NCBI GenBank assembly: GCA_964019415.1 | Contig: OZ025880.1 | Coordinates: 6,148,585 to 6,212,584 of the forward strand | Direction of reading: 5' to 3' | Source of the DNA: Ianthella basta | Taxonomy: Eukaryota; Porifera; Demospongiae; Verongiida; Ianthellidae | Length of the DNA stretch: 64,000 nucleotides | Shown here: positions 30,306 through 63,189 of the stretch, in pieces | Layout: every line of letters starts with the position of its first letter | Position numbering within the stretch: position 1 is the first letter of the stretch | Notes under the pieces: generated by a model | What the model was told of the DNA's origin: nothing | Databases searched by the model: none | The model's input: only the letters and a program-made list of their open reading frames with translations | Made by a program: the position numbers and the translations under genes

Positions 30306-33300
30306 ATGACGGAGTTGGACAAAACGCTGTTTCTGAACGCCAGACGATTGCCTCCCCCTTGTCTCCCACCTGGACAACAATCCCAGAGCTTTATGTGTGT
30401 GTTTTGCTCTGAGATCTTAGAGAATCCTTCGCAGGCTACCTGCGGAGACCGAGCCTGTTCTAACTGTGTCGCTTTCATCAAGAAAAATCTCGAGCAATTG
30501 TAAGTATTTTTCGAGTGCTTTATGACACAGCTGCAGTGATTGCATGGTACAGTCGATTTCAGAACGGTTGGCCAAAATGGCAAATGGCAGAACGATCAAA
30601 TGGCGTGACGTCACTATTAGTTCAACTGCTTGCCGTTACGTCACTCCTATTGTACAGTATTGCCTTTTGCCATTTACCTTTTGGACCACCATTCTGAAAT
30701 TGGCTGTAGCTTTGCAACGTGTGCTTATGCAAATTTGCCTGTGCAGAAGTTGAGCTGATAGCTAACTTCTCAAGCAGATCTCTATGGTGCATGTATATGA
30801 ATTGTGTACCAATGATGAAAGGCAACTGAATCTGCTGCTGTACAGTGGCCGGTTCCACTGATGTAGAGGGGACTGTGTACAGTCTTTGCTATCGTGGTGC
30901 ATTGTGCTCAGTTGGGGGAGGGGGTGCTTGCATGTGTAGCATTCTAATGGTTCTCTGCTATTGCTATCAACTCCCACAATTCTCTGCCTTCATGCTGTGA
31001 TCGACAGTGAAAAAGACACCTTGAAGTGTCCCGGTTGTCAAAGCGTGCTAACACCATCTGACGTGAGTATCAGTGCCTGATTAGCTGCTATTGCGAAATT
31101 GTGACCTATTCCTTCTGTCTATTATAGGTCTATTAGTACATTGTGCTACAAATGTCCTGCTAATGACTTACATGCATTCATGATATCAACTATCTTTTGT
31201 GTGTAGTTCTTCCCCGACAAGGCTGCTCAGAGGGAGCTAAGGACTGTACAAGTGATATGTCCGCACTCAGGATGTGGGTGGCAAGGAGCCTACCAGGACT
31301 ACCCCGGCCATCTCACCACTGACTGTGTCGCTGCCCCCGTGTCATGCCCACAATGCGGACAGACTGTGCCTCTAAACCAGTTGCAGGCCCACGAGGGACT
31401 CTGCCCCAACCGATCTCTCCACTGCCCACACTGCCAAATGCAAGTCCCTGCAGCACAAATGGAAGTAAGTGGACCTCACAAGGGATGAGAGGAGTAGAGT
31501 CTGAATTGTCTTTGGTGTGTGCTACTTATTTAATTTGGTTTAAAGCAATTATAGAGGTATCTGAGGTTGTGACCTGTGGTATGCACAGTGAGTATCCAAT
31601 ATGTGGGGGGTTCCCCTTAAGTTGTCCCTACTGCTAGCATAAGATTTTGCCGCTGGCTAGTTACACTAAAGAAACATACATCTACACCATAAGGAAACGT
31701 TCCATAGCATTTACAGTAGGCGGAGCATACTTCTAAATGTTTTTGTGCTTAGATGATAGACCTCACATTATTGATGGAGTGTGAAACCATAATAGTGCGT
31801 ATTATAAAGGTGCAGGTAGAGTGTGGAGTTTGGTGTAGAGTTTAGGGCATAGGTGACTGAAGAGGAGGAGAATGAGTTCATTGAAGGTGGTGGCATTGAT
31901 TGTTTCAATGCTGGGGATTCCACATTATAATTTCAATTCAAAGTAGTTTCACATTTTACAGTTTCAATTTGGTTCACATCATATACCTGAATTCCCCCCC
32001 CCCCCCCCCCCCCCCCCCCCTTCCTCCTTCTCAGGCCCACTTGGCTGGATGTGAGGAACATATCGTTCCCTGTCAGTCATGTGGGAAGAACATTAAAAGG
32101 AAGTTGGTGAGTGAAGGGGTCTTCACAGCTTAGTCCAAAAGATCAGCATGTGGTGGAATGGTCCTTAAGGTGGAACTCCCACTGTGTTTGTTCAACTCAA
32201 CTGCTTGAGAGGTGTCCTGGACATTGTTGCAACTCCCGACTAACAAACCGAAGGACTCGCAATCGATGCCGAGTACATACAGACTGGCAGATGGAGTTAA
32301 TAATATTCATCCATTACATCAGAATATCAAGTAGCGTTACCATGTCCACGTGTGACGTGTTGCTACGTCATTTTAGAAAAATGCTGTTACGGGTGGGTAT
32401 ACACGGTTGCATACTCTCATCTCTTATCTACTCTTGATTACATACATCCCATGGGTTGCTGAATCCAGGGAAATACCTCAAGCTATGGCCTCAATACTTC
32501 CTTAGCTACTCTTCAATACACAATGGGATGTTGTATTCCTTCCATGCAGAGACCTATCTGAGTTAGGCTATTTCGACGCAAGCAATGTTTGGCATGCATT
32601 CTTTCACACAGTCACATGGGTCCAGTTTCTGCCCTGAAGTTTACAAGTTCAAGCACAACCAGCAAGCCAGAGTTTAATAATGAATAGCTTTTATTAAAGA
32701 ATAGGGTGATAGATGCTAGTGACCCCCAGAGCTCCGTATTGCTTCTGTCAATTGCGCAAGCCAATCGTATTGTGAGTGGCCCTGGCAGTAGAGAGCCAAT
32801 TATGTACAAACTGAGTGAATGTAAAGGACAAATGCAAAGGAAGAATGCAACAGTGAAGCTTCGGATGTGACTTGTACCTTTGCTCTCTGTCTACCTGTTC
32901 GGACCATATAGCTGTTTGCATAGGGAATTATACATACTAGCAGAGAAGGGCGCCTTTGGCGCCCTCCTCTGCTCCGGCGCCCAACGCAGGTGCTTCCGAT
33001 GCCAGTGCTTCTGATGCAAAGCACTTCTAAACCTGGCTACTGAATGATAGCTGTAGACGCTGCAGTTGCAGTTAGCTATAGAGTTGCATGCAGCTGACTC
33101 CTCTTCCACCATGAATCACCTTCTGCAAGGTCAAACGTCTTGTATCGCCCTCCAAATTAACAGAACTGACTCATGATGGCCCCTTTGACCTGATTCCTGG
33201 TTGTCCTCTTGAGTTGACTCCTGGTTGGTCCTTTGAGCTGACTCCCCTCGAGCTGGCTCCTGCTTTTCCCTTGGTGCTGACTCCTGTGGGTGAAGGTTGA

Positions 33301-36300
33301 GTGATGGTCTTGGAGTTCTGACAGTTGTTGTCGGTTCCTAAGAGCTCTCATGCATCCCCGAATGTCTTGACCTCTTGGTTAGTCCAGTGATGCCCTTAAT
33401 GTTCGGCATATGCGCACTGCAACGGTTGCAAATGGCTTTGCGATGACGTCATGAGATCATTGCGCAAGCCTAAAACCCGCATAATTTGTGCCCATCCTTT
33501 CGCCATCGAGCCGCTTTCACTCGCGTAAGACGGCGCTTTCCGCTATATAGCTTATATCACCCACAGCCTTCTACATTGTGCTAAAACTATAGCAAAGAAG
33601 CCGTCGCACCATCTTCCCAGGAGGAGTTGTGTAACAAAGGAATTAGCTGCGAATTTCGTAATCTACTTCGCTTTCCTCCGTAAAACAAAAATGGCGTCCT
33701 ATAGTAACGTATGGCGAGTTGGCGCAAAACCTTCATTTCGCAAGCTTTCGCAGGGAAACCCAGCCGAGGACACCCTCTGGATAGCGCTTCGACGTTCGGA
33801 CTGCGTTTTCTGCAAACTCTCCGCACGGTTCCCGAGATTAGTGCGGACAAAAAATCGGCCTAGCTCCATTATAATAAGATAATAAGATGGCCAGTTACTT
33901 TCTAAAATGCTGCAATCTGATTGGTCTGTTAGGTATGGATTACAGGCATTTACACTTGATGCATCTTTTGTAACCTAGTTTGTGATTAGGATGGGAGATA
34001 TAATGTATGTATCTCATTCGATGGATAATTTATGAGCATTTTTTGCACAAACTGGCATCCCCATAGTATGCACCTTGTGGTACAAGCCTAGACAGGCTGT
34101 GGTTAAGGAGGTTGGCGCTGTGGTGGATGTGGTTGAGTAGTGCAACCACAGGAAGCACTTGTACATTCCTGTCACAACTGTATTTAGGAAATGACATGTG
34201 CAGTCATTGGTGAAGGTGGTTTGAGTCTTCCACTGTGAAGTTGTACATACATAATATGCATGTATAGAAGAATGGTATACTATGGATCTTCCTCCTGCTC
34301 TACACCCTCATTCTCCAACTCTGCATCCGCATTCTCCCACCCCACACTCTCATTCTCCCACCCCCACTCTAATCCTCCCATTCCACACCCTCATCCTCCC
34401 ACTCCACATCCTCCTCTCAGATGCCGAGGCACCTCTCAATGGAGTGTAAAGCTACCCAGTCCTGCCCATATGCACCATTGGGATGCCACTATCAGGTCAG
34501 TGCTCCACTGGGTTCCATTACACTACCTTCAAAGCAACTGTGTATGTATGCACATACGTAATATACTGTGTGTGCTCTCAACAACTACCAGCACTAACAT
34601 GTATACTCAGCATTCCAGAGGTGAGGGTCACATGACAGTTTTGTGATCCTATTCCGTAATTATTCCTATGCTGTAAGCAAACTACTGTATAGCGCAAAAT
34701 ATTCACAGGAGAATATTTTCGAGAATCTTCAAATTTTAGCTCAAACTGCAATTTTCACGGGAATGTTTTTGCGTTTTGTGAGATGTAGGTAAGCCACGCC
34801 CCCTATAGAATGGCGGTGTAAAGCAACGATCATGATGAAGCGTGCTTGGATCATACGTATGATCTCGAATTGACTAACACACTTCTCCAGCTCACTTCCC
34901 AAAAACACGGTTGCTGTTACACCTTGCTCTGCTTCCCTTTTCCCACTACACGAGCTTTTTCCTCCAGGGTAAAATCTTTGTACGCTCCGCATCATGAACT
35001 GCAAGCAATAGCTATCTTCTTCGCCCGCATCGGTGCTGATGACCTTCACCGCTTCATTGGCAGCTACAATGGTGTACGCCTGTTACTACTGTTCAAAGCG
35101 AACTGTCTGGCTTCGGTAGCACTGAACCAGGGCGCGTGAAGTAGTCATACCGTCACTACAGAGACATCGATCACAGCTTCACCCGTAACAGCTGAAAACT
35201 TGAGAGCGGCACCTGTAGCAGTAAACACTCGGTGATGAGCTCAGCGGCACGAGGCACTGTGCCTTCTTAGCATGCACAGCTAGGCTAGATTTGCTGCAGT
35301 GTATAGTTACAGGCAAGTAGCTGTGCCATCATCCATCTAAGTTCACCAATTAATGTATAAGCATAGGGTTAATACAAAATATCCGGGGGGGGGGGGGGGG
35401 GGGGGGAATATTTTCGCAAATCATGATCTATCCGCAAAATTCGCAAAAATTTTCTCCCGTGAAACTTTTGCGCTATACGATAGCTCACAAAGTAGTGCTA
35501 TGACTTTGTGATAGTAGTGACTTTGTGATTGTCACAACGGTGAAACTGCTCTGGACCTGTCATGATTGTGTCCTGTGCAGGCATCAAAACAACAGAATAT
35601 TCTTAATCCCAACCCTAATGGGTATGGAGCTTTAATGATGTGGTGTCTGGTTGGCTGTGTAATATGTACCAGTTCCCAAACAAGGTTAAAATGTTTAGGC
35701 TGGCAGAGAATGCTAGGTCATAATACCTATGGCCAATAGTATGTAGGTGCAAACACTGCAAATGGAGTGTACAGGAGGTACTGACATCACTTTGTGGTCA
35801 TTGTTCTCTCTAGGGACATGGGTGTCTTCTAGAGGAATCATTTTCTCTTTCGTTGTTTTTGGCTAGTGGCTGATCCATGATAGCCAGTTTAGGTATTCAT
35901 TAATTGCTTTTGTAAAGGAGCAATGCTTGCAGATGCTGCTGATGTTACACCAACATCAACTTCTTCAAACTGTAGTAATTTCATACAGACGTGCGTTCCT
36001 ACTACAAGTTACGTACAGGCGTATATACAACTACATACGGGTCAAGTTACAGGCATGCATATGCCCACAGCGGGTAACTTTTCTTCAGCACACCGTACAC
36101 AGGTGCATGGAAGCAAAATGGCAGGAAATAGTGTGTACAGTGCATAGCAAACTGTCATCTTCAGGGCTTCATATATGTACATTTTTGCAAACCACTTCAT
36201 CTTGCCCAGTCAGAGCTCCATAGCGCACAGACTATTGTGATGTACGCCATAGCTCGTTGATCGTTGAGTTTGCCTTTTTACAACCCCAGACAGATCCTGT

Positions 36301-37253
36301 TTTTCATAGTTTGTGAAAATGTTTATGAGTTTTGCCTGCTAGGTATTGTAGGTACTGTTTAGTGACCAACGACCACTACCATGACTAATTTTCATGCTCT
36401 ATTCTTGTGTATTACTCAGGGTACAGCACAAGAGATAGTTGATCATGAGAGAGAGTCTACATCTTCCCATTCCAGGATGGTTGTCAAGGCGGTTGTGGAT
36501 TTGGTAGACCAGGCCAATAGAATGGCCTCCGGGGGACCTGGAGTGGGACGTGACTTCATCAACCAGGTGGATGCAGCCATCACTCGATTAGAGACAAGGG
36601 CAACAGAGCTGACTCGGCAGGTGGGGGATGTGATGACAGACGTCCAGCGACTCAAGTCTGAAGCACAATCGCAAGCTACTGCAACAGAGGAGGCCATTTC
36701 TAGACTGCAGCAATCAATGAAAGAGCTCCAGGACTACTACAGTGACCTGGCACTGTCGGTGCAGACCCTGCAGGCTACCAGCTACAGTGGAGTGTACATT
36801 TGGAAGATACCCGAGCTGACCAGGAGGAGGAGGGATGCTGTCCTGGGAAAGACCATCTCCCTCTACAGTGCCCCATTCTTCACATCACGCCATGGCTACA
36901 AGCTGTGTCTGCGAGTCTACCTCAATGGAGATGGGTCAGGTCGAGGCACACACATCTCCTTCTTCATAACTCTCATGAAGGGAGAGTTTGACCCACTCCT
37001 CCCCTGGCCCTTCAAGCAGACCGTTTCCCTTTCACTGCTAGCACAGGATGGAGTGTCACGAGACATCACCCAGTCCTTCAAGCCAGATGAGGACAGTAGC
37101 AGCTTCCAAATGCCAAAGTCCGAGATGAATGTGGCATCAGGTTGTCCACAGTTCTGCTCTTTGGCTGTACTGGATAACCTATCCTACGCTCGTGGTGACA
37201 CCATTTACCTCAAGGGTGCCATCAATCTCCGAGGAATTGAACACATCCCGTAA
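30306..37253 (+). CDS. TRAF protein: RING, TRAF zinc fingers, coiled coil, MATH; 495 aa
   Basis: Six exons keep one frame: 30306-30499, 31008-31062, 31207-31464, 32035-32106, 34421-34495 and 36420-37253, all with GT-AG borders. TRAF family proteins are receptor-proximal adaptors and, with a RING, E3 ubiquitin ligases in NF-kB/JNK-type signalling. The RING lies at about residues 31-75 (Cys31, Cys34, Cys46, Cys51, Cys54, Cys72, Cys75), with Asp48 where His is usual (CGDRAC). TRAF-type zinc fingers run from about 95 to 225 with repeated CPxC/HxxxC patterns split over exons 3-5 (CPQCGQ, CPHCQM, CQSCGK, CPYAPLGC). A coiled coil lies at about 250-340, and a MATH domain at about 342-490 starts YSGVYIWKI. 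The ATG at 30306 was chosen because the duplicated exon copies at 18746 and 27890 start at the same place. It is the only complete copy in the window. Confidence 0.88.
31989..32020 (+). repeat. Poly-C tract in the polypyrimidine region of TRAF intron 3
   Basis: A run of about 34 C lies immediately before ttcctccttctcag, the acceptor of TRAF exon 4. It effectively forms part of the polypyrimidine tract. Its length is prone to assembly and slippage error. Confidence 0.9.
33160..33340 (+). repeat. Degenerate minisatellite in TRAF intron 4
   Basis: Imperfect units of about 24-27 bp built on gagttgactcctggttg and related versions (gagctgactcccctcgag, gagctggctcctgctttt). It lies inside the intron between TRAF exons 4 and 5 and has no coding support. 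The rest of this 2.3-kb intron shows nothing recognisable. Confidence 0.6.
34685..35480. mobile_element. DNA element with GTATAGCGCAAAA termini and TA target site, in TRAF intron 5
   Basis: The left end ctgtatagcgcaaaatattc and right end ...gaaacttttgcgctatacga are inverted copies, flanked by TA at 34683-34684 and 35481-35482. The interior of about 800 bp contains a G-run (about 35385-35406) and no intact transposase. The paralogous intron in block 2 lacks this element and has a different one at the same TA (50565-50741). Confidence 0.7.
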
Positions 37254-38077: not shown

Positions 38078-40318
38078 ATGGAAGCTGTTACTCGAAAGAA
38101 GCACCAGGTGACCGCTCGACAGGCCAGCGGGCAGGACTGGACTTCACGTGCGGCGACAGGACCGAAACATCTAGGCACAGCTAGCGAAAGGTACTATATG
38201 TAGCTTCGCAGGATATACTGGAGTGGAGATGCCTTCCTTTGACCATCAGTAGCTAGCTATAGCTAGCTAGCTGTTGTAGCTATTGTGTTGTATGAACATG
38301 ACTTTCAGGTTAACTAGCTACCTCGAAAAGCAGCACTTTGGCTTATAGCCTCACTGTCATGCTTCTTTGCAGTTGTAGAAGACCAAGTTTTCGTCACTCT
38401 ACCTCCTTATCGCTGCCTCCCATTGGTAACGTGGGTGGTGAAGCCTCCTCAGGGCCTCCCACCACAGGCTGCCGACGTGGGACACCGCACCCAGCTGCAG
38501 GCTCTGCACATGGTGCTGCATTGAGCACTGAACACCCTAGCAAGTGGGCAGCCCCATCAACTCACACTACAGGTGAGCCATCCATACACTGCAACCATGT
38601 ATTTATGCATAATTTTGCAAGTTGAGTCATGAGACAAGCTTATTGCCCTACTTGGGTGGGTGGGCTGGGAAACACAATCATGCTCATATGCATGCTCTAT
38701 ATAGGTCAGCTGAGCTCATGGTGTGGAGTCATGTGACGAGCTTAAGCTTGCCCTACTTGGGTGGGCTGAGGAAACTGCAAGCATGCTCTTGCTCTATAAT
38801 TTATATAGTCAACTGAGCTTGTGCTAACACTCCCACAGCTCTTTTCAAATTCACACTTACAATATGCATGTGTTGCTATTTGATTGCTCAATCCCAAGGG
38901 GCAAGCTTGTGCCACTCTCTTGCTGTCCGTGTGTATGCATGCAATCTGCAGGCAATGAAAAGCTGTCCAGTGCAGAAGCAGTTGCACCTGCTGCCAAACC
39001 TACTCCAGCACTGGCTGCTGCCAAAGGCAAGACTGGACTGAAGCGGTTTCGCCGCATGGCTCGCATTATTGCCAGCCAACTCCACTGGACCAAGGACCTT
39101 GTGCGAGAAGCTGAAGAGCATTTGAAGGCCTTTGTGGTGCCCAATCACGGCGATGGAGGGGAGGACCTATCGTTTAATGTTCATGCATTCAAGCGGGACA
39201 TTCAACCAAAGACAGGGATTTCCAGCCGAGTGAAGGCAATGTTGATCAAAAATGGTTGGGAACGTACTGAAGAAGAGCTCACTGTAATTGCACGGGTCCT
39301 CAGCTATCTGAAGTGCTTCTCTAGGTACTCCAGCTATGTGAAGAAGGAACTAGCAAAAATTGTTACCTTTCAGTCTTTTGAGCAGGGAAGAGTGGTTGTG
39401 CGACAGGGAGATATAGGTTTCAGCTACTACTTCATCATTCAGGGTAGCGTTTTTGTAGAAGTGCAAGACAAGGATGCAAAAGTAGGTAGCAACCACATTA
39501 TTGGGGAACTGGGTCCAGGTGCTTCGTTTGGAGAACTGGCATTGATCAACCAAGATTCACGGAGGAGAGCCACGATTGTCTGCAAGGAAAACTGTGAGTT
39601 TCTTATAGTTGATAAACCCAACTTTGACATAATCCTTCGCATTGATCATGAGAATGAATGGGAAACCAGACAAAACTTCTTCAGCACTCATCCCATCTTC
39701 CAGAATTGGGAAGAGAGCCAACTCAGCTACCTGACAGAGACCAGCGTCAGTGAAGAATATAATCCTGGCTCTGTGATCATGACTGACTTGCACAAACCCA
39801 ATGATTTCGTTCATTTTATCATGAAAGGACGCTGCAAAATTGTACAGGCTGTCAAACTGCCAAAGAAATTGGAGCTTCCTGAAATCTCAGATAAAGCGAG
39901 CAAGGTTGCAACACATAGTAGAACTAGAGTGGAAGACAGGACAGCTCATGATCACTCCACAACAAAGTGGTGGATGCTCCGAACCCTCACTCCTGGTGAC
40001 TACTTTGGTGTGGGTGAAGGTGATCCCACAATATCGGTGGTTGCAGATGAGGTGAAGGTGGAGTGCCTTAAAGTGAGACGTCTTCTTCTAATGAAGCATG
40101 ACAGAGGCAAACTGCTTGCTACATTGCAGAGGGAGGCAGCAAAACACTACCCTCAATTCACTGAAAGCTACTCCAAATACGCCGATGGTGTTAAGTGGAG
40201 ACAGTACAAGACTACCCTGGTGAAAGAGATTGCCAAGACAAACAAGAAAGACCATCCGACTGCTCTCAAGGATGTGCCAAAGATTTTGGTGTTGGAATCT
40301 CCGAGACTCTACCGTTAA
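38078..40318 (+). CDS. CNBD2-like protein with two cyclic-nucleotide-binding domains, 559 aa
   Basis: Three exons in one frame: 38078-38190, 38373-38572 and 38952-40318, with matching phases 2 and 1 and GT-AG borders. The first 150 or so residues are Ser/Pro-rich and variable. CNB-A lies at about 220-335, with QGDIGFSYYFIIQGSVFV and a phosphate-binding-cassette-like FGELALINQDSRRRATI. CNB-B lies at about 350-500, with FIMKGRCKI and GDYFGVGEGDP, but its cassette lacks the Arg-Ala-Thr element. The layout resembles animal CNBD2-type proteins, whose known role is in sperm; ligand binding here is unproven. The cassette of CNB-A is one residue longer than in PKA. It stands directly downstream of TRAF and upstream of a paralogue at 41165. 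Truncated copies lie at 51162 and 63190. Confidence 0.78.
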
Positions 40319-41164
40319 GGGCATACTTCATGGTGTAGGCAATGTACATTAGTGTGCATACAACTTCCTGTGTGTGCATGAGACTTCACCTCTCAAGTAC
40401 ATTGTTTACGTACCTCACTAAATGTAGTTTTAACCTTCAGTTGGTCATGTTTAACCAAATGAAGAAGATGCTAAAGGGTCAAGGTGATGGGCTCATGCAT
40501 GCAGACCTATGCCTAGCATGACTGTGCATGCCTCTTCATTGGGTGCAAGGCTCTCACTGCCGCTGTGTTCGTACACATTCTGCTATCATTATGCATGGTA
40601 AACACACAATAGTGGCTGTATTATTAGCTATAGGTTAGCATCTCCATGCCTGCATGCAGATGCCCGGCCCATTCCTGAGGCCTAGAGAACTATGTGTTGT
40701 CTGCTTGCAACCTCAGTGGGTCTCCCATGCTCCCACTTGACCTTTCCAGAGTGGTGACTCATCACTTCCTAATATTGCTTTGTGCATCATTCCTGTGGTA
40801 GTGTTTAATGTGATATGCTTTAAATAGGTCCCACTACATCAGTGGTTCCCAGGCCACTTGTCTCCTACTGCAAAAGAGCAACAAATTGCATCTTGCTGCT
40901 GTTGAACTCAGCCTTTTCTCCAAGACAGCCTGAGGCCATTGTGGGGAGGGGCTGTAACTCCCAAATGGACTTGGGTATGCTAAGTGTGCAGCTGCATAGT
41001 TCCAAATTGTATACTCCTGTGTAAACACTTGGAACCACAAATAAGGGGCAGTTTTGGAGTCTTAAGTAGGTAGGCGGGGCAGCATTTAAGTGGTGTCGAA
41101 TTACTGACGCTGCAGAAATTGCAGAGCAGTAGCAAGTGCGAAGCAAGCGGCACACTGGTGAGCC
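40319..41164 (+). promoter_or_regulatory. Intergenic and 5' flank of the second CNBD2-like gene
   Basis: From about 40730 this flank is repeated at 51510-52005 and 63490-63973, down to gcagaaattgcagagcagta gcaagtgcgaagcaag just before the ATG. Conservation in all three blocks, with a ggcggggcagcatttaag stretch near 41075-41092, makes it the likely core promoter. No clear TATA box. Confidence 0.45.
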
Positions 41165-42451
41165 ATGGCTTATCGCCGTCGTAGCAGTCGCATGTCGATC
41201 ACTCCACTTCCAGAGCTTCCAGGAAAGTCCCTCGCAGCTCCATCTGGGCCTAAGGAACCCCTCTCATTTGATCCCAAAGCGTACAAGAGAGACGTCTTAC
41301 CAGAATCGGGGATATCCGACAGAGTGGTGGAAGCTCTGCAGAAAGAGAAAAGCAGCCGTACGAAGGAAGATTTATCGGCTATATACTGTCTGATCATCAA
41401 CCTGCCCGGTCTGTTTCCAAAGCAATTTTCTTCCTTCTCCCAGTACGTCAAGAAAGATCTTGCAAAGATTCTGTCGTTCGAACAGAGAGACAAAGGAGAT
41501 GTGGTAGTGCAGCAAGGCGAAAAGGGGTACACCTTTTACGTGATCGTCTTTGGCACCGCCTACGTGGCCGTGGAATCAGAGGAGGTTGATCCAGAGAGCG
41601 GGATGACTGCTCCGTGTAACCGAATTGTAGCGACACTCAAGGCGGGCAAAAGTTTCGGAGAAATCGCTCTCCTTAGCGAGGATTCGTTACGACGGGCAAC
41701 AGTAGTGTGTAAGGAGTACTGCGAGCTCGTGACAATAAGCAAGGCCGACTTTGACCGGGTGGTTCGAGGACATTATGACCAAGCGATCAAAACCAAGAAA
41801 GATTATTTTGCTCAGCACAGCCTCTTCCAGAGCTGGAAAGACGAGCAACTCGATCTCTTGGCTAAAACAAGTGACACTGAAGAGTTTGGCCCTGACGCTG
41901 TCATCCAGCAAGGCCTGAACCAAGGCAGTGATGGAGCCGGCTATGTCTACTTCATCCTAAAAGGCCGCTGCAAGGTTGTGCAACCAGTTCAAAGTGTCAG
42001 CCACACACAGCCTGGCCTCAACAAGCCCAGGAGGAGTGGAAGTTGGGGTGGATCCACTTACTCTTCAGCAGTATCTTCACCATCAAAACAAAGATGGTGG
42101 CATCTGCGCACACTGGAAGCCGGTGACTACTTTGGAGTAGGAGAGGGAGACTCTACAATGTCAGTGCTAGCAGACTTGAAGGTGGTGTGCATCAAGGTGC
42201 AGGCAGTTACTTTGCATAAACTTGAGAAGGGAAAAATTGAGAGATTGCGACAATTAGCATCTCGATACTACCCAACACTTGAGCAGCGCCGCATCCTGTA
42301 TACGGAGTACGTTCATTGGACCAATTACAAAATGGCTGAGGTTATCCGAGTTGCACAGATGAAGAGAAAACCTCACCCAACAAAACTGAGAGATGTGCCC
42401 ACGGTACTGGTTAAGCAATCCCCTGCTCATTACTACCCCATTAGCTGCTGA
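41165..42451 (+). CDS. Second CNBD2-like protein, 428 aa, single exon (block 1 copy)
   Basis: Starts MAYRRRSSRMSITPLPELPG. CNB-A lies at about 85-205, with VVQQGEKGYTFYVIVFG and cassette FGEIALLSEDSLRRATV at about 165. CNB-B lies at about 218-375, with FILKGRCKVV and GDYFGVGEGDSTMSV, and lacks the Arg of a functional cassette. The end (LVKQSPAHYYPISC) resembles the end of the neighbouring gene (LVLESPRLYR), suggesting that this is the ancestral terminus. The start is kept in three blocks. Adjacent and same-strand to the 38078 gene, it arose by local duplication and lacks the Ser/Pro-rich N-terminal exons. It could bind cyclic nucleotide through CNB-A only. Confidence 0.82.
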   Translation: MAYRRRSSRMSITPLPELPGKSLAAPSGPKEPLSFDPKAYKRDVLPESGISDRVVEALQKEKSSRTKEDLSAIYCLIINLPGLFPKQFSSFSQYVKKDLAKILSFEQRDKGDVVVQQGEKGYTFYVIVFGTAYVAVESEEVDPESGMTAPCNRIVATLKAGKSFGEIALLSEDSLRRATVVCKEYCELVTISKADFDRVVRGHYDQAIKTKKDYFAQHSLFQSWKDEQLDLLAKTSDTEEFGPDAVIQQGLNQGSDGAGYVYFILKGRCKVVQPVQSVSHTQPGLNKPRRSGSWGGSTYSSAVSSPSKQRWWHLRTLEAGDYFGVGEGDSTMSVLADLKVVCIKVQAVTLHKLEKGKIERLRQLASRYYPTLEQRRILYTEYVHWTNYKMAEVIRVAQMKRKPHPTKLRDVPTVLVKQSPAHYYPISC

Positions 42452-44545
42452 TCTTATTTCAGACTTGTGCCATGCACAGTGTAGCCACCATTGCTTGTTG
42501 CGTGATGTCCAACATGTATGATAACACTGCATTTACTTAATTATTTAATGTACAGAAATTGTAAATGTATTATTTATATGCATGGCTGAATTTTTATTGC
42601 GCATTATGGTCTTATATATATTATATGCTCAACCATTAATTTGTATGTGACTGCCATTTACAGTGGCATGCACCTAAGTGTGCATAGCATGAAGGAGCAT
42701 GCATGCACGCAATACATTAAATTAGGACAGCATTACGCAACTCTCACTGTCTGGTATCCCTGACATCATGGGGCCAATCAATTGCATCCAAATGCAGCCA
42801 AGGGCCCTTAGGTATAAATATACAGGCTTTGCATTCTATGGTACTCAATCGTGATCATATCTGCAGGTCTATAGAGGAATGAATCCATGTAATGCAGGTT
42901 CTGTATGCAGTATATAGAAGTGAATCAATTAATGCTGAACTGCGCACGCACATATATTGAACAGCTCTCTTTGTCCAGCATGCATTTGTGTCACATGCAT
43001 ATTTTGAGTAATGACGGGCATGGTGAATGTAGATTTCACTGATAATCACGTGCATGGTATCATGCATGACTGAAGCAGAATATGCATGTGCACTATGTAC
43101 ACTCTCACTCACATGATTATGCTTGCTCAGCTCATGTAGCAGCTGCAGATGTGCAATGATGATTGATGCTGCACGGTCAGCACATGTTTAAGCTAAAATA
43201 ATGTAGTGCAACCTGTAATTATATTATATGGAATTCAACCTATATTTAGTAACCTGAAAAGCACATCCAGTAAATAATGTTCATGATCTATAGATCTGTC
43301 GGGTAATAGTATTCACAATCATCTGTTTGCCAAGCATGCACACTTACAGAGACACTTACTCTTTTGCTATAATTTATACATGTCATGCACTTTTGGAAAA
43401 CTACGAATACCACATTATAACAGGGGAATAAATTTTCCATATGGAGTTTAGCTACATTTGTGATTTTGCATTTCAACCAAACAAGTATAAATTTCACAAT
43501 GTCACACAGAAAGCATGCATATGCACAGTACAATCATACATGCTGGGTGTGTCTGCATGGCCATGAGCTATCCATGTACGTATAATTGTATATATGTGCA
43601 TGCATGTCCGCACTGCACAGAATGAGTTGTGAGCATCATCATACACTGAAATGTGTGAGTACATATAACATGCTCCATAGTCAAAGACATAATTGAGTGA
43701 CAATACTACACTAGTACAACAATCGTCATGTGAATAAAAAACAAGCCACCAAATGCCAGCACAAATGGACACAGAATTATAATACTACGGCAGTACACAC
43801 TAACTACACAGACCATGACTGACTTGCGCTATATTGCACATGCCACCAACCTGCCTACATTCTTGCTACGTATACCCAGTTAGTCATTCTGTATCTGCAT
43901 CCCTTAGCAAGCCGGGACATGTACATGGAATGACACCTATAGCTGTGTCAACAGACCAGCTGCAAACATCAGCCAACGGATATAAAAGCACACACAAATA
44001 GCACTAAGTCTCGCTCTACTAATAGTCACAGTTTACAGATTTATCTGCGCAGGTATATATGCTGCTGACACTAACTATAGTGCGGGGCACATTAATCCTC
44101 AACTACAAATTCAAATTATACTTCAATTGTACTTTCAGGAGCCCTTGATCGAGATCTATCCCTGGCCTCATATCTTGACCCTGAATGAGGTGGCAATACA
44201 TATATATTCCATGCATGTACTTATAGCTTATGTTTATAATACAAAATATTATGAATAATAATACTGGTTATATATACAGTGCAGTTGCATGCACTGCAAT
44301 TTCATTCCCCTGCATCATTGGGTACGCCCCAGGGGATGTTACATGATGTAATACAAATATTCACCGCAGTGGCCATAAATATCATGCATATAATTAATAC
44401 AGGTATGCCAATCAGTCCCTGCTGTCCGCCCACAACTTAATTGATTGTTGCTGATGATAGCTATGGAATATGCATAGCATACGCAGACATGGACAGTTCT
44501 TACAATAACAATCTCAAGCAACCAGACAGGACTATAAACAATACA
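42452..44545. other. Intergenic region, nothing recognised
   Basis: AT-rich sequence with many tgcatgca steps and no coding signal. It lies between the end of the CNBD2-like gene and the converging NSUN6 gene. In block 2 this interval is replaced by the ZU5-Death exons and flanks (53255-57600); homology to block 2 resumes near 44405. Confidence 0.6.
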
Positions 44546-49023
<4,478 letters not shown>

Positions 49024-49258: not shown

Positions 49259-49504
49259 CTACAGTTCCTTGCTTGAGTCCTCCTTTGTGTTGGTCTGAGG
49301 GTGAGGTCTGATCTTTGGCACAAAAGCTGGTCCAAACCTCTTCTCCCTCTCCTCTCTCCGCTTGTCCAGGTACGGTCGCGACAGGTTGAAGGCGATTGCA
49401 CCTAACAGTATCAGACCGAACCACACTCCCGATATGATGCCCACACGTCTTATCCTCAGCCTCAGTTCTGGCTCCAAATCATGATACCGCTTGTCGCCCG
49501 CCAT
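49259..49504 (-). CDS. 81-aa single-pass membrane protein of unknown family (copy 1)
   Basis: The single-exon product starts MAGDKRYHDLEPELRLRIRR. A hydrophobic segment VGIISGVWFGLILLGAIAF (about residues 21-39) is followed by a strongly basic KRREEREKRFGP stretch. It has no signal peptide cleavage site and looks like a small integral membrane protein, possibly of mitochondria or ER, but I cannot name a family. The ATG has a strong context (caagATGGcgg). It is on the same strand as NSUN6, with about 235 bp between its stop and the NSUN6 start, and no AATAAA is visible in that gap on this strand. The copy at 62386-62631 encodes a nearly identical protein, indicating purifying selection or recent duplication. 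Confidence 0.75.
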   Translation of the reverse strand: MAGDKRYHDLEPELRLRIRRVGIISGVWFGLILLGAIAFNLSRPYLDKRREEREKRFGPAFVPKIRPHPQTNTKEDSSKEL

Positions 49505-49584
49505 CTTGACATGGTCACGTGGTACGTACATCTATATTCAGGTTAAAGTACCGTTGGGGGATTCCAAACCGACCAACCAAGATA

Positions 49585-50741: not shown

Positions 50742-51161
50742 TGTCTCATAAAGTAGTGCTATGCAATAATGGTGACTTTGTGATTATAATACTGCTGAAA
50801 CTGCACTGGACCTAGCTGTCATGCTTGCATCCAGTGCAAGCACTGGGAATGACAGAAGCATCCTAATCCCAACCCAAATGGTATGGGTAGTCAGCGAATC
50901 AGTAGCTATCTGAGAGTGTTTGACCCAAAACATTGCACAAGACTGCCACCCTGAGCAATTCTTCAGGGCTAGCTGTGCAGCACCATGCAAGTATGTTAGC
51001 CATTTTGGTGATAGTGAGAGAAGTATGTTAACACTCCCACAGCTCGAGCTTTTCAAATTCACACATGCAATATGCATGTGTTGTTACTAGACGGCCAAAT
51101 CCCAAAGTGCAAACTTGCATCCCTCTCTTGCCGTCCTTCTGTGTATGCATGCAATCTGCAG

Positions 51162-51500
51162 GCAATGATAAGCTGTTCAGTGCAGAAGCAGGTGCACCTG
51201 TTGCCAAACCTACTCTGGATGGCTGCTGCCAAAGGCAAGATTGGACTCAAGAGATTGGCTTGCATTTTTGCAAGCCAACTCCACTGGACCAAGGACCTTG
51301 TACGGGAAGCTGAAGAGCATTTGAAGACCTTTGTTGTGCCCAACCACGCCGGCGATGGAGGGAGGACCTATCATTTATTGTTCATGCATTCAAGCGGGAC
51401 ATTCAACCAAAGACAGGGAATTCCAGCCGAGTGAAGGCAATGGTGATTAAAAATGGTTGGGAACGTACTGAAGAAGAGCTCACTGTAATTGCACGGGTTC
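51162..51500 (+). pseudogene. CNBD2-like gene (38078 type), truncated and frameshifted (block 2)
   Basis: Begins at a retained acceptor (tctgcag) with GNDKLFSAEAGAPVAKPT, equivalent to exon 3 of the 38078 gene. It then suffers indels after aaacctactc and after HAGDGG. Homology ends at gcacgggt (39300 in block 1) and jumps to sequence matching about 40,740, deleting roughly 1.4 kb that held both CNB domains. The 5' exons are also absent. Confidence 0.85.
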
Positions 51501-52005
51501 ACATGCTCTTTCCAGTGAGGTGACTTATCACTTCCTAATTTTGCTTTTGTGCAGTGTATATATATAGTAGCACCATTCCTGTGGTATAGTGTGTAATGTG
51601 ATACACTTAATTAAACAGGTACCACGATATCAGATGGTTTCCTGCCTGGTTGTCTCCTATATACTGTGTAGGCGTGCAGGAGGAAACTAAAGGACCTCAG
51701 GGGAGCATCTTTGTTGCAGATGGATGACATTTTCTACAAGACAGCCTGAGGCAATATAGGAGGGGCTGCAATGGCACTAATGCAACTCCCAAATGGACTT
51801 GAGTATATTATTATGCTCGGCTTGCAACTGCGCAGTTCCAAATTGTATACACCTGTGTAAACACGTGGAACCTCAAATATGGAGCAGCTTATAATTAGAT
51901 AGCTGAGTAGGTGGGGCAGCATTTAAGTTAGTGGCGTCGGATTACTGGCGCTGCAGAAATTGCAGAGCAGTAGCAAGTGCGAAGCAAGCGACACACTGGT
52001 GAGCC

Positions 52006-55000
52006 ATGGCTTATCGCCGTAGTAGCAGTCGCACGTCGGTCACTCCACTTCCAGAGCTTCCAAGACAGTCCCTCGCAGCTCCATCTGGGCCTAAGGAACC
52101 CCTCTCATTTGATCCCAAAGCATACAAGAGAGACATCTTACCAGAATCGGGCATCTCCGACAGAGTGGTGGCCGCTCTGCAGAAAGAGAAAAGCAGCCGT
52201 ACGAAGGAAGATTTATCGGCTATATACAGTCTGATCATCAACCTGCCCGGTCTGTTTCCAAAGCAATTTTCTTCCTTCCCCCAGTACATCAAGAAAGACC
52301 TTGCAAAGATTCTGTCGTTCGAACAGAGAGACAAAGGAGATGTGGTAGTGCAGCAAGGCGAAAAGGGGTACACCTTTTACGTGATCGTCTTTGGCACCGC
52401 CTACGTGGCCGTGGAATCAGAGGAGGTTGATCCAGAGAGCGGGATGACCGCTCCGTGCAACCAAATTGTAGCGACACTCAAGGCGGGCAAAAGTTTCGGA
52501 GAAATCGCTCTCATTAGCGAGGATTCGTTACGACGGGCAACAGTAGTATGTAAGGAGCACTGCCAGCTCGTGACAATAAGCAAGGCCGACTTTGACCGGG
52601 TGGTTCGAGGACATTATGAGCAAGCGATCAAAACCAAGAAGAAGTATTTTGCTCAGCACAGCCTCTTCCAGAATTGGACAGACGAGCAACTCGATCACTT
52701 GGCGAAAACAAGTGACACTGAAGAGTTTGGCCCTGACGCTGTCATCCAGCAAGGCCTGAACCAACGCAGTGATAGAGCCGGCCATGTATCTTTCATCCGG
52801 AAAGGCCGCTGCAAGGTTGTGCAACCAGTTCAAAGTGTCAGCCACACACAGCCTGATCATGACAAGCCCAGGAGGAGTGGAAGTTGGGGTGGATCCACTT
52901 ACTCTTCAGCAGTATTTTCACCATCAAAACAAAGATGGTGGCATCTGCGCACACTGGAAGCCGGTGACTACTTTGGAGTAGGAGAGGGCGACTCTACAAT
53001 GTCAGTGCTAGCAGACCTGATGGCAGAGTGCATCAAAGTGCAGGCAGTTACTTTGCATAAACTTGAGAAGGGAAAAATTGAGAGATTGCGACAATTAGCA
53101 TCACGATACTACCCAACACTTGAGCAGCGCCGCATCCTGTATAGGGAGAATGTTCAGTGGACCCAGTACAAAATGGCTGAGGTTAGCCGAGTTGCACAGC
53201 TGAACAGAAAACCCCATTCAACGAAATTGAGAGATGTGCCCGGGGTGCTGGTAAGCAATTATACATACGTTCGCTTCCTATATGCCTACGATGATTCTGA
53301 TACGCTGCATCTATATATGGACACATATACCGAGCATGTACGAGCTGCAATAACAAATCAGCGTGGGACTGTTTACTATGTATCACTTGCAGCTTGTTTG
53401 CATCACATGCATGCTCAGACTATCCTGAATGAAGCTGAACAATGTCTATTCTCAATCCTTATAGACTGATGGAGGGAAAGATGCAGAGATGATGATGCAA
53501 AGAGAGATCAAGGCACATGTAGAGAGAGAAAATAGGTCCACAGCTCCATTACTTCAAACATCCAGCCCTTGTAGACAAAGAAGCAGCCCTTATACTGGCA
53601 CTGATTCAGGTTTGTGTGCTCTCTTACACATGCAGATAAACTCACATGCACACACACAATGTGTTAGTGTTCATTCTGTAGGATATATAAGTGTTCTGCC
53701 TGCTTCACTTTACATTTTACCCATGTATACATTTTTAAATACATAATAATACAGGATACCATTTAACCAGCTACAGCTTGGACTGTATATAGCTAGCATT
53801 ATAAGACTGCCATGTAAGATAGAGTATATATCTGTACAGGACCACTAGCTGTCTCACCATCTGATGACGTATGTATTGTGGTACCTATCGGGCATCTTTA
53901 CAATACCCAAACGATGCATCTTTACAAGTACCTATTATAGCTAGTTACCAACTTGTTGTATGCAGATGTATGTGGGAGTAGTGTTACAGTAGGGTATATA
54001 CATACACTATAGCACTTCATCATAATGATTATTATGATGTAATTGCACCGGCCTGCCCTGCACTGTGCAAAAGTGGAGCTAGGAAGATGTACAATTGGCC
54101 TATATGTTGGCCACTGTCTAACCTCTTACACATATTGGTGGATTGATAAGTGGTTCTGAAGCCTGTCTTCTCCAGAAGCTAAGAGGAGTGGGACCAATGA
54201 TGCTTGTTGCTATTCCCTGATATGCTTGAGGTATATAGTCATAACACATGAATTAATTATCAGACCTGGGAGACATAGCCTAGAAAATTCAGACAGACGT
54301 CAATAGACTGTTTGACTCTAACATGTGCACCCATTTCATGCTGTAGGCTTTATGCCCTGTCGTGTCTCCGCGGACAGTACAGGTCTGTCACCAGGTCAGC
54401 AGCTAAAGGTCAGTAGTATAATAATATGAGTCAAAGTGATTATATTGATATTATAGCAAACATCTGTTTTTGAATTATAATTATGACTTAATGCATCACT
54501 CTCATGAACACAGACCTCCATTCATCCAACCAGAATAAGGTCAGATTGCCCCAAAGAAGCAGACATAGCCGAAGTGAAGGGTGAGTGGAGAGTTGCTGTA
54601 TAGCGGAAAGTACGTGGTGGTGGATCTATTCTAACTTACAACATAATCCATCCCTCAGCTGCCGAAGTGGATCTGAATGACCTGTGTTGGCTCCCATTTG
54701 GTCTTCAGTCACACTCTGTTGGACCAGAAGGAGGAAAACTGTGTCTGCGGCCATTAGCTGGTGTTGTGGGAGGGAAGGAAACGGACACCATCATTCTAGA
54801 TGTGCCTCCAGGTGCTGTTGGCTCTTCAGACACAGTGGAGGTGCACACTGCTGTCATTCCGTATGGGCCTTTTACACTGCCACCGGGCTATCAATTTGGT
54901 AGCGCGGTGGTATACATCTCCTATGACGGCCAACATGTCACCCGCCCTTTTAAACTCCACCTCCCTCACTGGTACGGTGGGCAGGACCATGTCCAGGATG

Positions 55001-56972
55001 GCATTTCCTTTGCAATGGCTCCTCATACACTGAAGAAGAGGAAAAGTGTGTACCACTTCAAGCTACTGGAAAGTGGGAGGATTACTGATAACCACAGCGG
55101 AGAACTGGAGATTGATGGTCACTGTAGCCTGTTTGCTGAGGTATTCAAGAAAGGAGCCCAGTTACGTTACCAGGCCATACCTCTGCAGAAAGAAGAGGGA
55201 GATAAAACACAATGTGATGTTGTAGTGACGTATGCATCACCTCTGTGGAGTGAGGTAAGTATTTAAATTTAATACATGCACTGTATATAGTAGGTCTGCA
55301 CTGTGGCATATCATATATTGTACATGTAGCATGACATTTGATATGGTTAATGCAATTTTACAGATTTTAGTGAAGTACAGACAAGGAAAGAGTGGTTGGG
55401 CAGTGGGCAAGCCCTCCAGCCCATTCTCATTCAGTGACAGCCAAATCAAAGGACTACTGAAAAATGACCATGGAAATGGCTGGCATGCAAACATCAATGG
55501 GTCTCATGTGGTGAGTTCACTGGCACAAATTAAAGTAATTGTAACATAAGAATGTGGATCTGTTTTCATGCATTGTGCTTTTATCTTCTTTGACAATGAC
55601 ATGCTTAAGGTGCGGCCTCAAGACTTGAAATATGACTCCTACTGCATCACCAGCCCAAAGCAACTGGAAATGGCAGTGAACAACAGAGGTTATCCCCCAT
55701 CCGTTACATGTTTAGTCACTTACCGAGAAGAGCTGAGGAGGACAGGAAAACCTGTTTGGGTGGTACTGGAGTTGCTTGGCGCAGAGATAGAGCTAAACTT
55801 TTTATGTAAGGCATATGAGGACTTGAATGGAGCCAAAAATGGTGAGTGAAATCATTGACAGTTGACATCAAGAGATCGAGAAACTTAGAGCACTTTGATA
55901 CATTACATATGAAGTAAATTGTCACATAATAATTATACTATAATGTTCACATGTCTCTTTCCTCCATGTTGTGCTTTGCACCCTTCTCTACCATTAGCTG
56001 CAGCTGCCGTACAGCCCCAGCAAGCCCCTCCCACTGACATGCCGACTTGTAGGCACCCTTCTATACCATCTCCAAAGGAGATTGGTAAGTACACACTGCA
56101 TAGATGCACATGCTCAGGACTACATGCATCTGACCAATGAAGGGATGCAGTGCTGTATGGAGTTTGACACGGAAGCTCTTGAAAGTCACCTGTCGTAGAC
56201 TTGATATCTTACTCGGTGTTTCAATAGCCTATTGCTGTGTTTTTCGGTTGTAGAAGAATGAAAAAGAAGGCTTTAAATTATATAAGTAATCAAGAATAAA
56301 AAAGAAGACACTTTTAAGTAATCAATTGCCTATAGTGACTTCTGAGAGAACTACCAGCAACCTATAAAGCTGCCATGGCCAATCTTCTTCAATATGTACA
56401 ATTTCGACAGTATTATGATGACCACCCTGTGGAAATTAACACTTATATTCTCACTCATTGACAAATTCAAACAGCTGTGTGCTTTCTTTTCTTGGGTGGC
56501 ATGCGCACTGAATGTCTCCTCTCCAACTGATGATCACTTTCTCTTTCTTCATCTGTGAGCTGATTGATAGTATTTGATGCTGCATCAAGTGTTGTCTATG
56601 TAGTAAGCTGTATAACTGTTGCAGCATATAATTATAGCATGTATGTGTTTTAACACAGGCTCCAATCCATTGGATGCAACACCAACGTTGCAAGGCCTAC
56701 ATGAAGCTATTGTACGTGTTGCAGGCAAATGGGAGAGTGTTGGACTGCAGTTGAACATTGACGACTATGTCCTGCATGCAATCAGGACACCCAATGGAAG
56801 TAATGAAGATCACTGCCGTGAGATGTTTAGGCGATGGCTTGCTGGGGAGCCGGGCTGTGGGGCTCTCCCCAAGACCTGGTCTAGTGTGCTCCATGCAGTG
56901 CAGATTGGCTATGGCAGTGAAGTTGGTAAAAAGATTTTAGACCTTCTCTACAGCTATCACCAGAGTAAATAG
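52006..56972 (+). CDS. CNB-CNB-ZU5-Death fusion protein, 964 aa
   Basis: Nine exons keep one frame: 52006-53250, 53465-53609, 54347-54408, 54514-54580, 54659-55254, 55364-55510, 55610-55841, 55998-56084 and 56659-56972. Residues 1-415 equal the 41165 gene: CNB-A with FGEIALISEDSLRRATV, and a degenerate CNB-B. Residues 416-506 are a polar linker. ZU5 (about 524-620) contains VGPEGGKL and DVPPGAV. Residues about 640-830 could be a UPA-like domain. The Death domain (about 870-955) contains AGKWESVGLQL and a CREMFRRWLAGEPGC core, and ends near the C-terminus. ZU5-UPA-Death modules occur in UNC5, PIDD1 and ankyrins, where they mediate oligomerisation and death or NF-kB signalling. Fusion to CNB domains suggests cyclic-nucleotide input, by inference. 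If splicing at 53250 fails, the CNB part ends at 53469. A separate ZU5-Death gene is the main alternative; no good start codon is seen for one. Confidence 0.68.
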
Positions 56973-56999
56973 AAAGTAACCTCTGTGTGTCTTATTTAT

Positions 57000-57733
57000 T
57001 CTGTACTGCATTACAAGCTATGTACAGTGTTGGTATCACTAGTGTAACACATTGGCTTGACTGACATATCTCTAATCTGTCGTTATATAATTCTATGTTC
57101 AATTTAGTGGTCAAATACAATTTTTCCGTTCTAGACAGTAAGTCTCAAATCTGCCTTGGGATGCACTGTTTGGGTGCAGGTAGGGCATGAGCGGCAGGCA
57201 GGTTTACCCTTCCACAATTGTCCGTGACCCCGAGGCCACTTTGGGTGTATTATATTCTGCATTAGTTTACTTCCTGTAAGGACCTTAATTTTCGCGGTAC
57301 TAGACTTTCGCGGATTGAGGAATTTTGCATTTCTATTATCACGGATGCGTGTCGCCTAGCAAATAAATGTCCACATATGGCAATTACTAGTAGGAGTTTG
57401 TTAAAGTCCATGGGTTGGGACTTTTCTAATGCATTCCATCCAATGTAGGCCTGAAGTAAACAAAGCCAACTGTGTTGTAGCAATCTTTGGTTGTTTTGAC
57501 GATGTCTATACCTGTTCGTGCCAAACCCATTTATTAATCACCATATCAGGAGGTGAGTGAGTTACATACATTAAACTATAAAAACTACATGTATAAAAAT
57601 CAGTCCCTGCTGTCCACCCACAACTTAATTGATTGTTGCTGATGATAGCTATGGAATATGCATAGCATACGCAGACATGGACAGTTCTTACAATAACAAT
57701 CTCACGCAACCAGACAGGACTATAAACAATACA
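57000..57733. other. Intergenic region between converging fusion gene and NSUN6 copy 2
   Basis: No coding signal. Homology to block 1 resumes at about 57597 (tcagtccctgctgtccaccc, compare 44411). The stretch ttttcgcggtactagactttcgcgg near 57288-57312 could be a transposon end, but no partner was found. Confidence 0.5.
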
Positions 57734-62146
<4,413 letters not shown>

Positions 62147-62385: not shown

Positions 62386-62631
62386 CTACAGTTCCTTGCT
62401 TGAGTCCTTCTTTGTGTTGGTATGAGGGCGAGGTTTGATCTTTGGCACAAAGGCTGGTCCAAACCTCTTCTCCCTCTCCTCTCTCCGCTTGTCCAGGTAC
62501 GGTCGCGACAGGTTGAAGGCGATTGCACCTAACAGTATCAGACCGAACCACACTCCCGATATGATGCCCACACGTCTTATCCTTAGCCTCAGTTCTGGCT
62601 CCAAATCATGATACCGCTTGTCGCCCGCCAT
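62386..62631 (-). CDS. 81-aa single-pass membrane protein of unknown family (copy 2)
   Basis: Same length, start and membrane segment as the 49259-49504 gene, with identical residues up to the basic tail. Differences are confined to the last 20 or so residues (KIKPRPHTNTKK versus KIRPHPQTNTKE). Its strong start context (caagATGGcgg) is kept. It is again about 240 bp upstream of NSUN6 on the same strand, so the pair was duplicated as a unit. The promoter side differs from copy 1, which carries a MITE there. Confidence 0.75.
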   Translation of the reverse strand: MAGDKRYHDLEPELRLRIRRVGIISGVWFGLILLGAIAFNLSRPYLDKRREEREKRFGPAFVPKIKPRPHTNTKKDSSKEL

Positions 62632-62639
62632 CTTGACAT

Positions 62640-63189
62640 GGTTAAGTGGCATTCAGGTCACGTGTCCCTTGCAGTGTGTACAGTAAGTTCAATTCTGTTT
62701 GGTGCTTCCTTATCCACCTACGGCACCAGATCGGATCCTGAATGGCTGCAGTCAAGACCCAAACCTGCAGGAGGAAGAACAGGACTGACCCTCAGATGAC
62801 TCTGCATTTTAAAAGTTATGTTCTGTTACTATGTCTTGCTGTAAGATACTCACTACCCTTTTATTACTTTCTTGCAACCTACACGCGTGAAGTGTGAAAC
62901 ACTTAGCTGAGCTATGAAAGAAATGGAAGCTATAGCTAGAAGCCGCAACTTAGCTGGGGAACGACGGTTCCGTCGCTCCTGCGCACCTCGGAACAACGGT
63001 ACCATCGACGTCGCTCCTGTCTACCTCCGTAATAACGGGAACGGTTTCGTTCGTGGTTTATGCCAACTGGGACGGCAGAAATACGGGCTGTCCCGTGTCC
63101 GTATATGCCACTACGGTGCCACACGGCGCGGGAAGCGTCGTACGGTCACGCCCGTATTTATAATAAAGCCATTTTTCCTGTGCTGCCGC
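62640..63189. other. Unique filler between block 2 and block 3
   Basis: About 550 bp with no counterpart in blocks 1-2. It is GC-richer than its surroundings from 62945 to 63150, with several inverted acgg/ccgt steps (cgacggttccgtcg, aacaacggtaccatcgac). This may be an inserted element, but clear termini were not found. Confidence 0.4.

Follow-up and report, generated by a model that had tools for sequence, protein, structure and literature searches.

The question raised by positions 52006-56972 of the stretch of Ianthella basta DNA analysed here (the window: 64,000 nucleotides, contig OZ025880.1, referred to as C13:6148585-6212584) is whether a cyclic-nucleotide-binding (CNB) domain and a tail with ZU5-like and Death-like domains are encoded there by one fused gene or by two adjacent ones, and how the two parts came together. 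The initial annotation had read the nine exons as a single gene. Based on comparison with related loci in the genome (209 Mb searched, 96 contigs; positions are those of the window unless a contig is given), one fused CNB-ZU5-Death gene is favoured over two neighbours, with moderate confidence, and the locus is understood from the sequence as a young chimeric gene whose history can be read from its copies.

The nine-exon model is confirmed as real at the level of sequence. Exons 1 to 9 of this locus, which we call copy C, join into one open frame that encodes 964 residues and ends in a stop; the introns are all GT-AG, with phases 0,1,0,1,0,0,1,1 just as the initial annotation had given them, and the 2,895 coding bases contain neither frameshift nor early stop. 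All exons lie on the plus strand. The CNB part of 415 aa is encoded by exon 1 (52006-53250), preceded at 51800-52005 by the probable promoter side and 5′ end of the gene, where the CpG content climbs from about 51801 into the exon. Intron 1 (53251-53464; donor GTAAGC at 53251, acceptor TTATAG) is followed by the linker exons 2 (53465-53609), 3 (54347-54408) and 4 (54514-54580), the ZU5-like exon 5 (54659-55254), exons 6 (55364-55510) and 7 (55610-55841) in the region behind ZU5 where a UPA domain would be placed, another linker in exon 8 (55998-56084) and, finally, exon 9 (56659-56972) with the Death-like domain and the stop. A chance string of open frames is ruled out, exons 3-9 aligning exon by exon with one locus on contig C6 (L044, C6:9071000-9079999) and exon 2 with another (L045, C6:9088500-9095999).

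The CNB call for exon 1 is certain from its match to the Pfam family cNMP_binding (PF00027; aa 109-201, E 5.5e-15, 55.5 bits at a curated cut-off of 27.5), which bears out the CNB start that had been predicted for the protein. Other Pfam families at E up to 1 were found neither in exon 1, besides PF00027, nor in exons 2-9 taken together, and none of the 34 pattern matches from a scan of the genome_contigs set with the CNB exon was a relative. The best matches in the PDB are cAMP-dependent Rap exchange factors and PKA/PKG chains, headed by chain 1o7f (E 5.9e-22), a cAMP-dependent Rap1 exchange factor which we take to be the protein known for short as EPAC. The phosphate-binding cassette reads FGEIALISEDSLRRAT, with Glu166 and Arg177 invariant in copy C and in the related copies A and B described below. 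Glu and Arg of the cassette have a role in cyclic-nucleotide binding, and PKG carries, after the cassette Arg, a Thr that favours cGMP (PMC3080414). Exon 1 has R177-A178 and hence Ala at the position of the PKG Thr, in the equivalence set by our own alignment. Since the first CNB domain possesses the sugar-phosphate residues together with Ala at the place of that Thr, cAMP rather than cGMP is suggested as its ligand. The second half of exon 1 has no Pfam family in copy C, and the corresponding half of A gives a weak partial CNB match (E 0.016); it is apparently a degenerate CNB domain that lacks its cassette. Of the CNB domains in the plural that had been proposed for the N-terminus, one is thus recognisable, the other CNB-like half having gone unrecognised. 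The likeness to PKA regulatory subunits and EPAC lies in a CNB domain with Glu and Arg in the phosphate-binding cassette; copy C differs from them in its apparently degenerate second CNB, and the dimerisation-docking, RasGEF and kinase domains were not found beside its CNB by Pfam at E up to 1.

Which of the two parts was there before is a matter on which the sibling genes bear. The whole-genome search with exon 1 returned six matches, representing five copies (A to E), with copy E hit twice and showing 7 and 9 internal stops. The stand-alone CNB genes are B (41165-42451, plus strand; 90% identical to exon 1, with a stop of its own just past the homologous end), A (39059-40318, plus strand; 42-43% identical, likewise with its own stop, the genome match beginning at 39158 and the start perhaps lying further upstream) and D (C13:6251435-6252652, opposite strand; 77% identical). 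Measured from the point homologous to the end of exon 1, the stops of A, B and D are all at most about 15 residues away. Because A, B and D stand alone with stops of their own and E is decayed, the fusion, if made, would be peculiar to copy C. Among 30 CNB matches genome-wide, none but C and E were seen by eye to lie within 10 kb of ZU5 or Death exons among the matches listed, a weak negative in view of the 150 candidates scored in each of three of the searches behind it.

B and C sit in two copies of one block, in which 38822-39297 and 40734-42419 match 51026-51498 and 51500-53259, and in which the downstream parts 44389-46923 and 57577-60000 match as well, at 93%. Between these matches lie, in B, 2 kb with pieces that match the sequence behind D and, in C, the 4.3-kb ZU5-Death stretch. 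Since the 2 kb of B shares its pieces with the flank of D and C has ZU5-Death at that place, it is most simply copy C that acquired the stretch. A ZU5-Death tail ancestral to the whole CNB group is less likely, B and D being without it behind their CNB frames and sharing downstream pieces of their own; it is further disfavoured by the downstream sequence of B, which has no match to L044 or L045. The diagnostic sites in the CNB exon form a mosaic: at 25 of them C goes with B, at 13, mostly in the 3′ part, it goes with E, and at another 13 B and E agree, which makes gene conversion between the CNB copies probable. The CNB exons of C and B differ by no indel in 1,245 bases, as compared to 11 in 429 bases of the 5′ flank and 4 in 988 bases of a stretch of the downstream flank.

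The source of the tail is traced to the family of Death-ZU5-Death genes on contig C6. Genome searches with the ZU5 exon and with the Death exon gave at least 150 matches each, the query locus included, and the closest ZU5 exons among the matches listed are on C6, at 87% and 84% identity. Exons 3-9 have counterparts in L044 with matching splice sites, and in 1,499 aligned bases show 176 substitutions and only 2 indels, of 15 nt (in exon 3) and 6 nt, both multiples of 3; introns 3, 4, 6, 7 and 8 show 204 substitutions and 29 indels in 887 bases. Exons 4 and 8 are without indel, the latter at 31% substitutions, and exons 6 and 7 have counterparts in L045 as well. Exon 2 aligns with L045 over 145 bases, with 30 substitutions and indels of 3 and 18 nt only. 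Its counterpart there, of 166 bases, is an internal exon with an equivalent acceptor and without ATG where C has three, which indicates that exon 2 was itself once internal. The 3′ part of intron 1, from about 53330 (perhaps 53270) on, corresponds by homology to intron sequence of the C6 Death-ZU5 gene. On our own reading of the alignments the C6 genes have more exons upstream, and between their counterparts of exons 2 and 3 they contain an extra Death exon. The similarity of C to L045 extends to 53658 and is taken up again at 53695, where the position in L045 has advanced by about 1 kb; as C is without the C6 exons between the counterparts of exons 2 and 3, the exon 2-exon 3 join would also be new, with phases that match. 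The joins without counterpart in any relative are therefore this one and the fusion join between exons 1 and 2. In sum, the C6 genes are like copy C in exons 2-9 and their splice sites (exon 2 in L045, exons 3-9 in L044), and unlike it in their other upstream exons and in the extra Death exon. The CNB part has no match in the C6 stretches read (L044 and L045); L046, the stretch upstream of another C6 relative, gave no match. L045 contains, in addition, a second and more divergent ZU5 exon (45% identical) at its positions 5782-6384, behind the counterparts of exons 5-7.

The junction between the two parts is illuminated by copy E (C13:6211795-6219106), the CNB part of which begins 12 kb after that of C. 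E matches C 51218-58486 in order, with the CNB exon, the 3′ part of intron 1 together with exon 2, part of exon 6, exons 7-8 and the downstream flank; it is decayed, with stops and 17 indels in 1,219 CNB bases, and exons 3-5 and 9 are present at most as scraps. Between the CNB end and intron 1, E has 1.6 kb that match L045 positions 543 to 1787, and its junction consists of the CNB frame end, 14 unassigned bases with an in-register stop and then the parental intron. By this comparison E retains the older junction, and C has lost the 1.6 kb. The CNB frame end reads CTGGTTAAGCAAT in B, TTTGTTAAGCAAT in E and CTGGTAAGCAAT in C, hence GTTAAGC in B and E as opposed to GTAAGC in C. In the register of B and E, copy C would hit a stop 14 codons further on. 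The lost T takes the frame off that stop and at the same time gives the GTAAGC donor in phase 0, as exon 2 needs, so that a one-base deletion appears to have created the splice donor of C. Among the 9 GTs examined, the one at 53251 makes the best donor, agreeing with the consensus at 7 of 9 letters; the acceptor of exon 2 is common to C and E and nearly so with L045. The join 53250-53465 keeps the full frame, a property held by 19 of the 73 possible joins in all.

The tail had been described as a ZU5-UPA-Death module, and of that description a tail of ZU5/Death type stands through its relatives: the ZU5 and Death identities are below threshold when the exons are taken alone and are supported through relatives only, and a UPA domain was not detected. 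Exon 5 scores 13.8 bits against Pfam ZU5 (cut-off 21), and at C5:1605477-1605959 the genome has a relative with 54% identity, which overlaps a Pfam ZU5 match that, at 28.5 bits, lies above the cut-off. A profile of four ZU5 exons retrieved nothing from the PDB up to E 10, the AlphaFold model of exon 5 had a predicted local distance difference test (pLDDT) score of 34 and was not usable, and none of the 3 pattern matches from a scan of the viral_contigs set with the ZU5 exon was a relative. For UPA, Pfam gave nothing in the exons up to E 1 or in the whole genome up to E 0.1, the family being silent in control genomes too. NCBIfam returned 0 families for the ZU5 and Death exons. The segment GHCSLF of exon 5 contains an H-x-S-L-F that is kept in all four aligned ZU5 exons, presumably at the place where autoproteolytic ZU5/FIIND proteins have their H-F-S site.

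Exon 9 matches Pfam Death at E 0.019 and 15.5 bits, below the cut-off of 22.6, and in L044 the exon that corresponds to it shows no Death match up to E 0.1. Support comes from the first Death exon of L045, to which exon 9 is 28% identical over 88 columns in BLASTP and the L044 counterpart of which reaches 32.5 bits, above the Pfam cut-off. With a profile of four Death exons, 35 sequences of the PDB came up at E 1 or below; the top one is a chain of THO complex subunit 1 (2.6e-4), the next rows are FADD (E 5.3e-4), RIPK1, CRADD and PIDD chains (5e-4 to 8e-3), and unrelated PPR and triosephosphate-isomerase rows are matched also. Single-sequence searches of the PDB gave 0 matches with the Death core of exon 9 and, with the protein of exons 2-9, two enzyme rows at chance level. 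The AlphaFold model of exon 9 shows five helices at low confidence (pLDDT 52); with this model, Foldseek placed a chain of a Death-domain complex in the first row, at an E of only 3.8 and with unrelated helical bundles ranking alongside or above. The resemblance to UNC5, PIDD1 and ankyrin lies in the order of a ZU5-like part and, some way behind it, a Death-like domain at the C-terminus. These proteins differ in their N-terminal receptor, leucine-rich repeat or ankyrin parts, where copy C has CNB, and in a UPA part of that type, which is undetected in copy C, as well as in the sub-threshold standing of its ZU5 and Death exons against Pfam.

A single transcription unit that starts at the CNB exon is supported by the distribution of CpG. 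The observed/expected ratio at C is 0.71 at 51801-52200 and 1.0 at 52201-52600, with a window average of 0.43; it rises to near 1.0 likewise at the starts of the CNB genes B and D, and amounts to 0-0.44 in windows that start from 53401 to 56801. A clear CpG-rich, promoter-like stretch is therefore present at the CNB start only. The sequence offers no support for an independent promoter and start of the ZU5-Death exons, exon 2 being internal in L045 and CpG being low from 53401 on. Poly(A) signals of the type AATAAA or ATTAAA are absent between 53251 and 55528; in B and D, such a signal follows the stop at a distance of no more than about 270 bases. One gene is further favoured by the quality of the 53251 donor and by the coding exons of both parts, which have stayed in frame while the introns and copy E decayed.

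Several observations weigh on the other side. CpG is mildly raised elsewhere, to 0.68 at 53001-53400 and to about 0.7 at 57001-57600, behind the last exon. The absence of poly(A) signals is weak evidence, expected about one time in five at the window density of 0.72 per kb, and the 846 bases that follow the stop of the stand-alone gene A have no such signal either. Read without splicing, the CNB frame continues across intron 1 and meets its stop at 53467-53469, which would give a CNB-only protein of 488 aa; a competing acceptor, with exon start at 53419, leads to an early stop; and in-frame ATGs in exon 2, the first at 53489, could start a separate protein. Substitutions on the C branch show no selection, neither in the CNB exon (10 synonymous, 23 nonsynonymous, P 0.47) nor in the ZU5 exons 5 and 6 (14 synonymous, 21 nonsynonymous, P 0.12). 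The ratio of nonsynonymous to synonymous substitution rates (dN/dS) is 1.17 for exon 9 against L044, as compared to 0.53 for exons 5-7 against L044 and 0.47 for the CNB exon against B, and the mosaic of the CNB exon, with its traces of gene conversion, implies that the low divergence from B may not necessarily reflect selection. The open frame through intron 1, the lack of poly(A) signals and the nonsynonymous-to-synonymous ratios were all weighed, and none is taken as proof.

Of the alternatives, two adjacent genes survive best, and yet this is an unlikely arrangement on the present comparison. The CNB gene would then end by read-through to the stop at 53467-53469 or by use of the alternative acceptor, and the ZU5-Death gene would be expressed from a new promoter with the ATGs of exon 2 (53489). 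Consistent with this are the CNB-only genes A, B and D, the open frame through intron 1, and the occurrence of ATGATGATG in exon 2 of both C and E. Against it speak an exon 2 that is internal in L045, where it has no ATG, and that has retained its acceptor; the lack of a CpG-rich stretch at or just before exon 2 comparable to that at the CNB start; and tail exons that are still in frame though severed from their original start. A chimera on its way to becoming a pseudogene, with a ZU5-Death tail that is not translated or hardly used and a CNB part that alone works, if anything does, is more improbable still. It draws on the decay of the sister copy E, on C-branch substitutions that are indistinguishable from neutral, on the dN/dS of 1.17 for exon 9, and on a Death exon just past the end of L045 (C6:9096479-9096784) that carries stops too; against it, C is free of frameshift and early stop over its whole coding sequence, while the introns have accumulated their 29 indels against L044.

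Comparison of the copies gives the origin of the locus as a sequence of steps. A block with a one-exon CNB gene gained, directly behind the CNB frame end, the 3′ part of a C6-type Death-ZU5-Death gene, and the captured piece arrived without the start of its own gene. Later deletions in C took out the parental sequence between the two parts, together with the first Death exon, and one base was lost at the CNB frame end, by which GTTAAGC became GTAAGC, the apparent donor, and the later stop fell out of frame. Transcription from the CNB promoter would run through, and splicing of 53250 to 53465 would then probably yield a protein composed of CNB, degenerate CNB, linker, ZU5-like and Death-like parts.

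What such a protein might do is a more speculative matter. In UNC5B, ZU5 keeps UPA and Death in a closed supramodule, and ligand opens the module and frees Death (PMC8897508). By analogy, to PKA and EPAC at the front and to UNC5B at the back, a gating of Death assembly by cAMP is conceivable, if doubtful: a cyclic nucleotide, probably cAMP, might bind to the first CNB domain and alter the hold of ZU5 on Death, with the tentative consequence that Death is freed to assemble with partners. Caution on this mechanism is advisable, since copy C has lost the first Death exon, which scores better, and exon 9 is weakly constrained. The locus could conceivably record the birth of a new signalling link, in which one lost base coupled a CNB sensor gene to a captured ZU5-Death tail and so made a protein of cAMP-gated Death-fold assembly.

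The surroundings of the locus were described as well. The window contains a TRAF gene at 30234-37250 (plus strand), with a TRAF zinc finger at 31207-31485 (E 9.5e-11), a MATH domain at 36366-37250 (E 2.1e-42) and a weak RING at 30234-30500, below cut-offs. The initial annotation had spoken of TRAF genes; one is present, about 15 kb away, and no second was identified among the open reading frames of the window that were scanned. The segmental duplication (38822-46923 and 51026-60000) carries, besides the CNB gene, an RsmB/F-type methyltransferase on the minus strand, which we assume to be NSUN-like, with matches at 45374-45997 and 58552-60564 (two of the three in the latter stretch below cut-off). 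Identity along the block varies from 87% to 98%, which suggests gene conversion. A 30-bp tandem repeat of about ten copies occupies the same place in both block copies (46268-46559 and 59345-59637), and a 26/52-bp repeat is found at 45537-45742. A small conserved open reading frame with a possible transmembrane segment (MAGDKRYHDLEPELRLRIRRVGIISGVWFGLILLGAIAFNL...) is duplicated at 49262-49531 and 62389-62652, both on the minus strand, and has no Pfam match at E up to 0.01. Near CNB copy D, positions 1-1750 of the stretch L025 form a very long minisatellite of GGGGACAGGTGAG-type units. Elsewhere in the genome, C20:1980456-2168294 holds a cluster of 15 partial CNB matches, several of them equal in score and 4 with an internal stop, and the CNB matches at C8:192574-195840 and C92:11395-14661 (a 33-kb contig) are equal in score and frame length and possibly represent an unmerged haplotig.

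Lastly, the locus has importance for the evolution of Death-fold signalling in early animals. The terms "cyclic nucleotide-binding", "ZU5" and "death domain" were not found together in the open-access literature searched, a body that excludes most subscription papers, and neither did "CNBD2" co-occur there with "death domain" or "cNMP_binding" with "ZU5". For the sponge Amphimedon, 357 TRADD-N proteins are described, up to half of them with unique architectures and most types with Death-superfamily domains (PMC8195603), and NACHT-Zu5 is named among the architectures common to early animals (PMC12909245). The Amphimedon expansions are comparable to the present case as large lineage-specific Death-fold families with many unique domain partners; they differ in that the proteins there are TRADD-N proteins, and "cyclic nucleotide" has 0 occurrences in the main text of that paper (PMC8195603). 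Death-fold domain shuffling is thus an established theme in sponges, and what is new here is the unusual CNB sensor. If the fused protein is made, it would bring second-messenger sensing and Death-fold assembly into a single chain, a combination the terms of which did not co-occur in any paper of the literature searched. The unfused siblings, the donor family and the decayed sister copy all remain in the same genome for comparison. The unusual feature of the locus is the completeness with which its making can be read. Regardless of function, it displays a stepwise origin: the siblings are unfused, the donor family sits on a different contig, the older junction survives in the decayed sister copy, and a splice donor was apparently gained by one base. 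The manner in which Death-fold families of early animals acquire new sensors becomes directly testable here.

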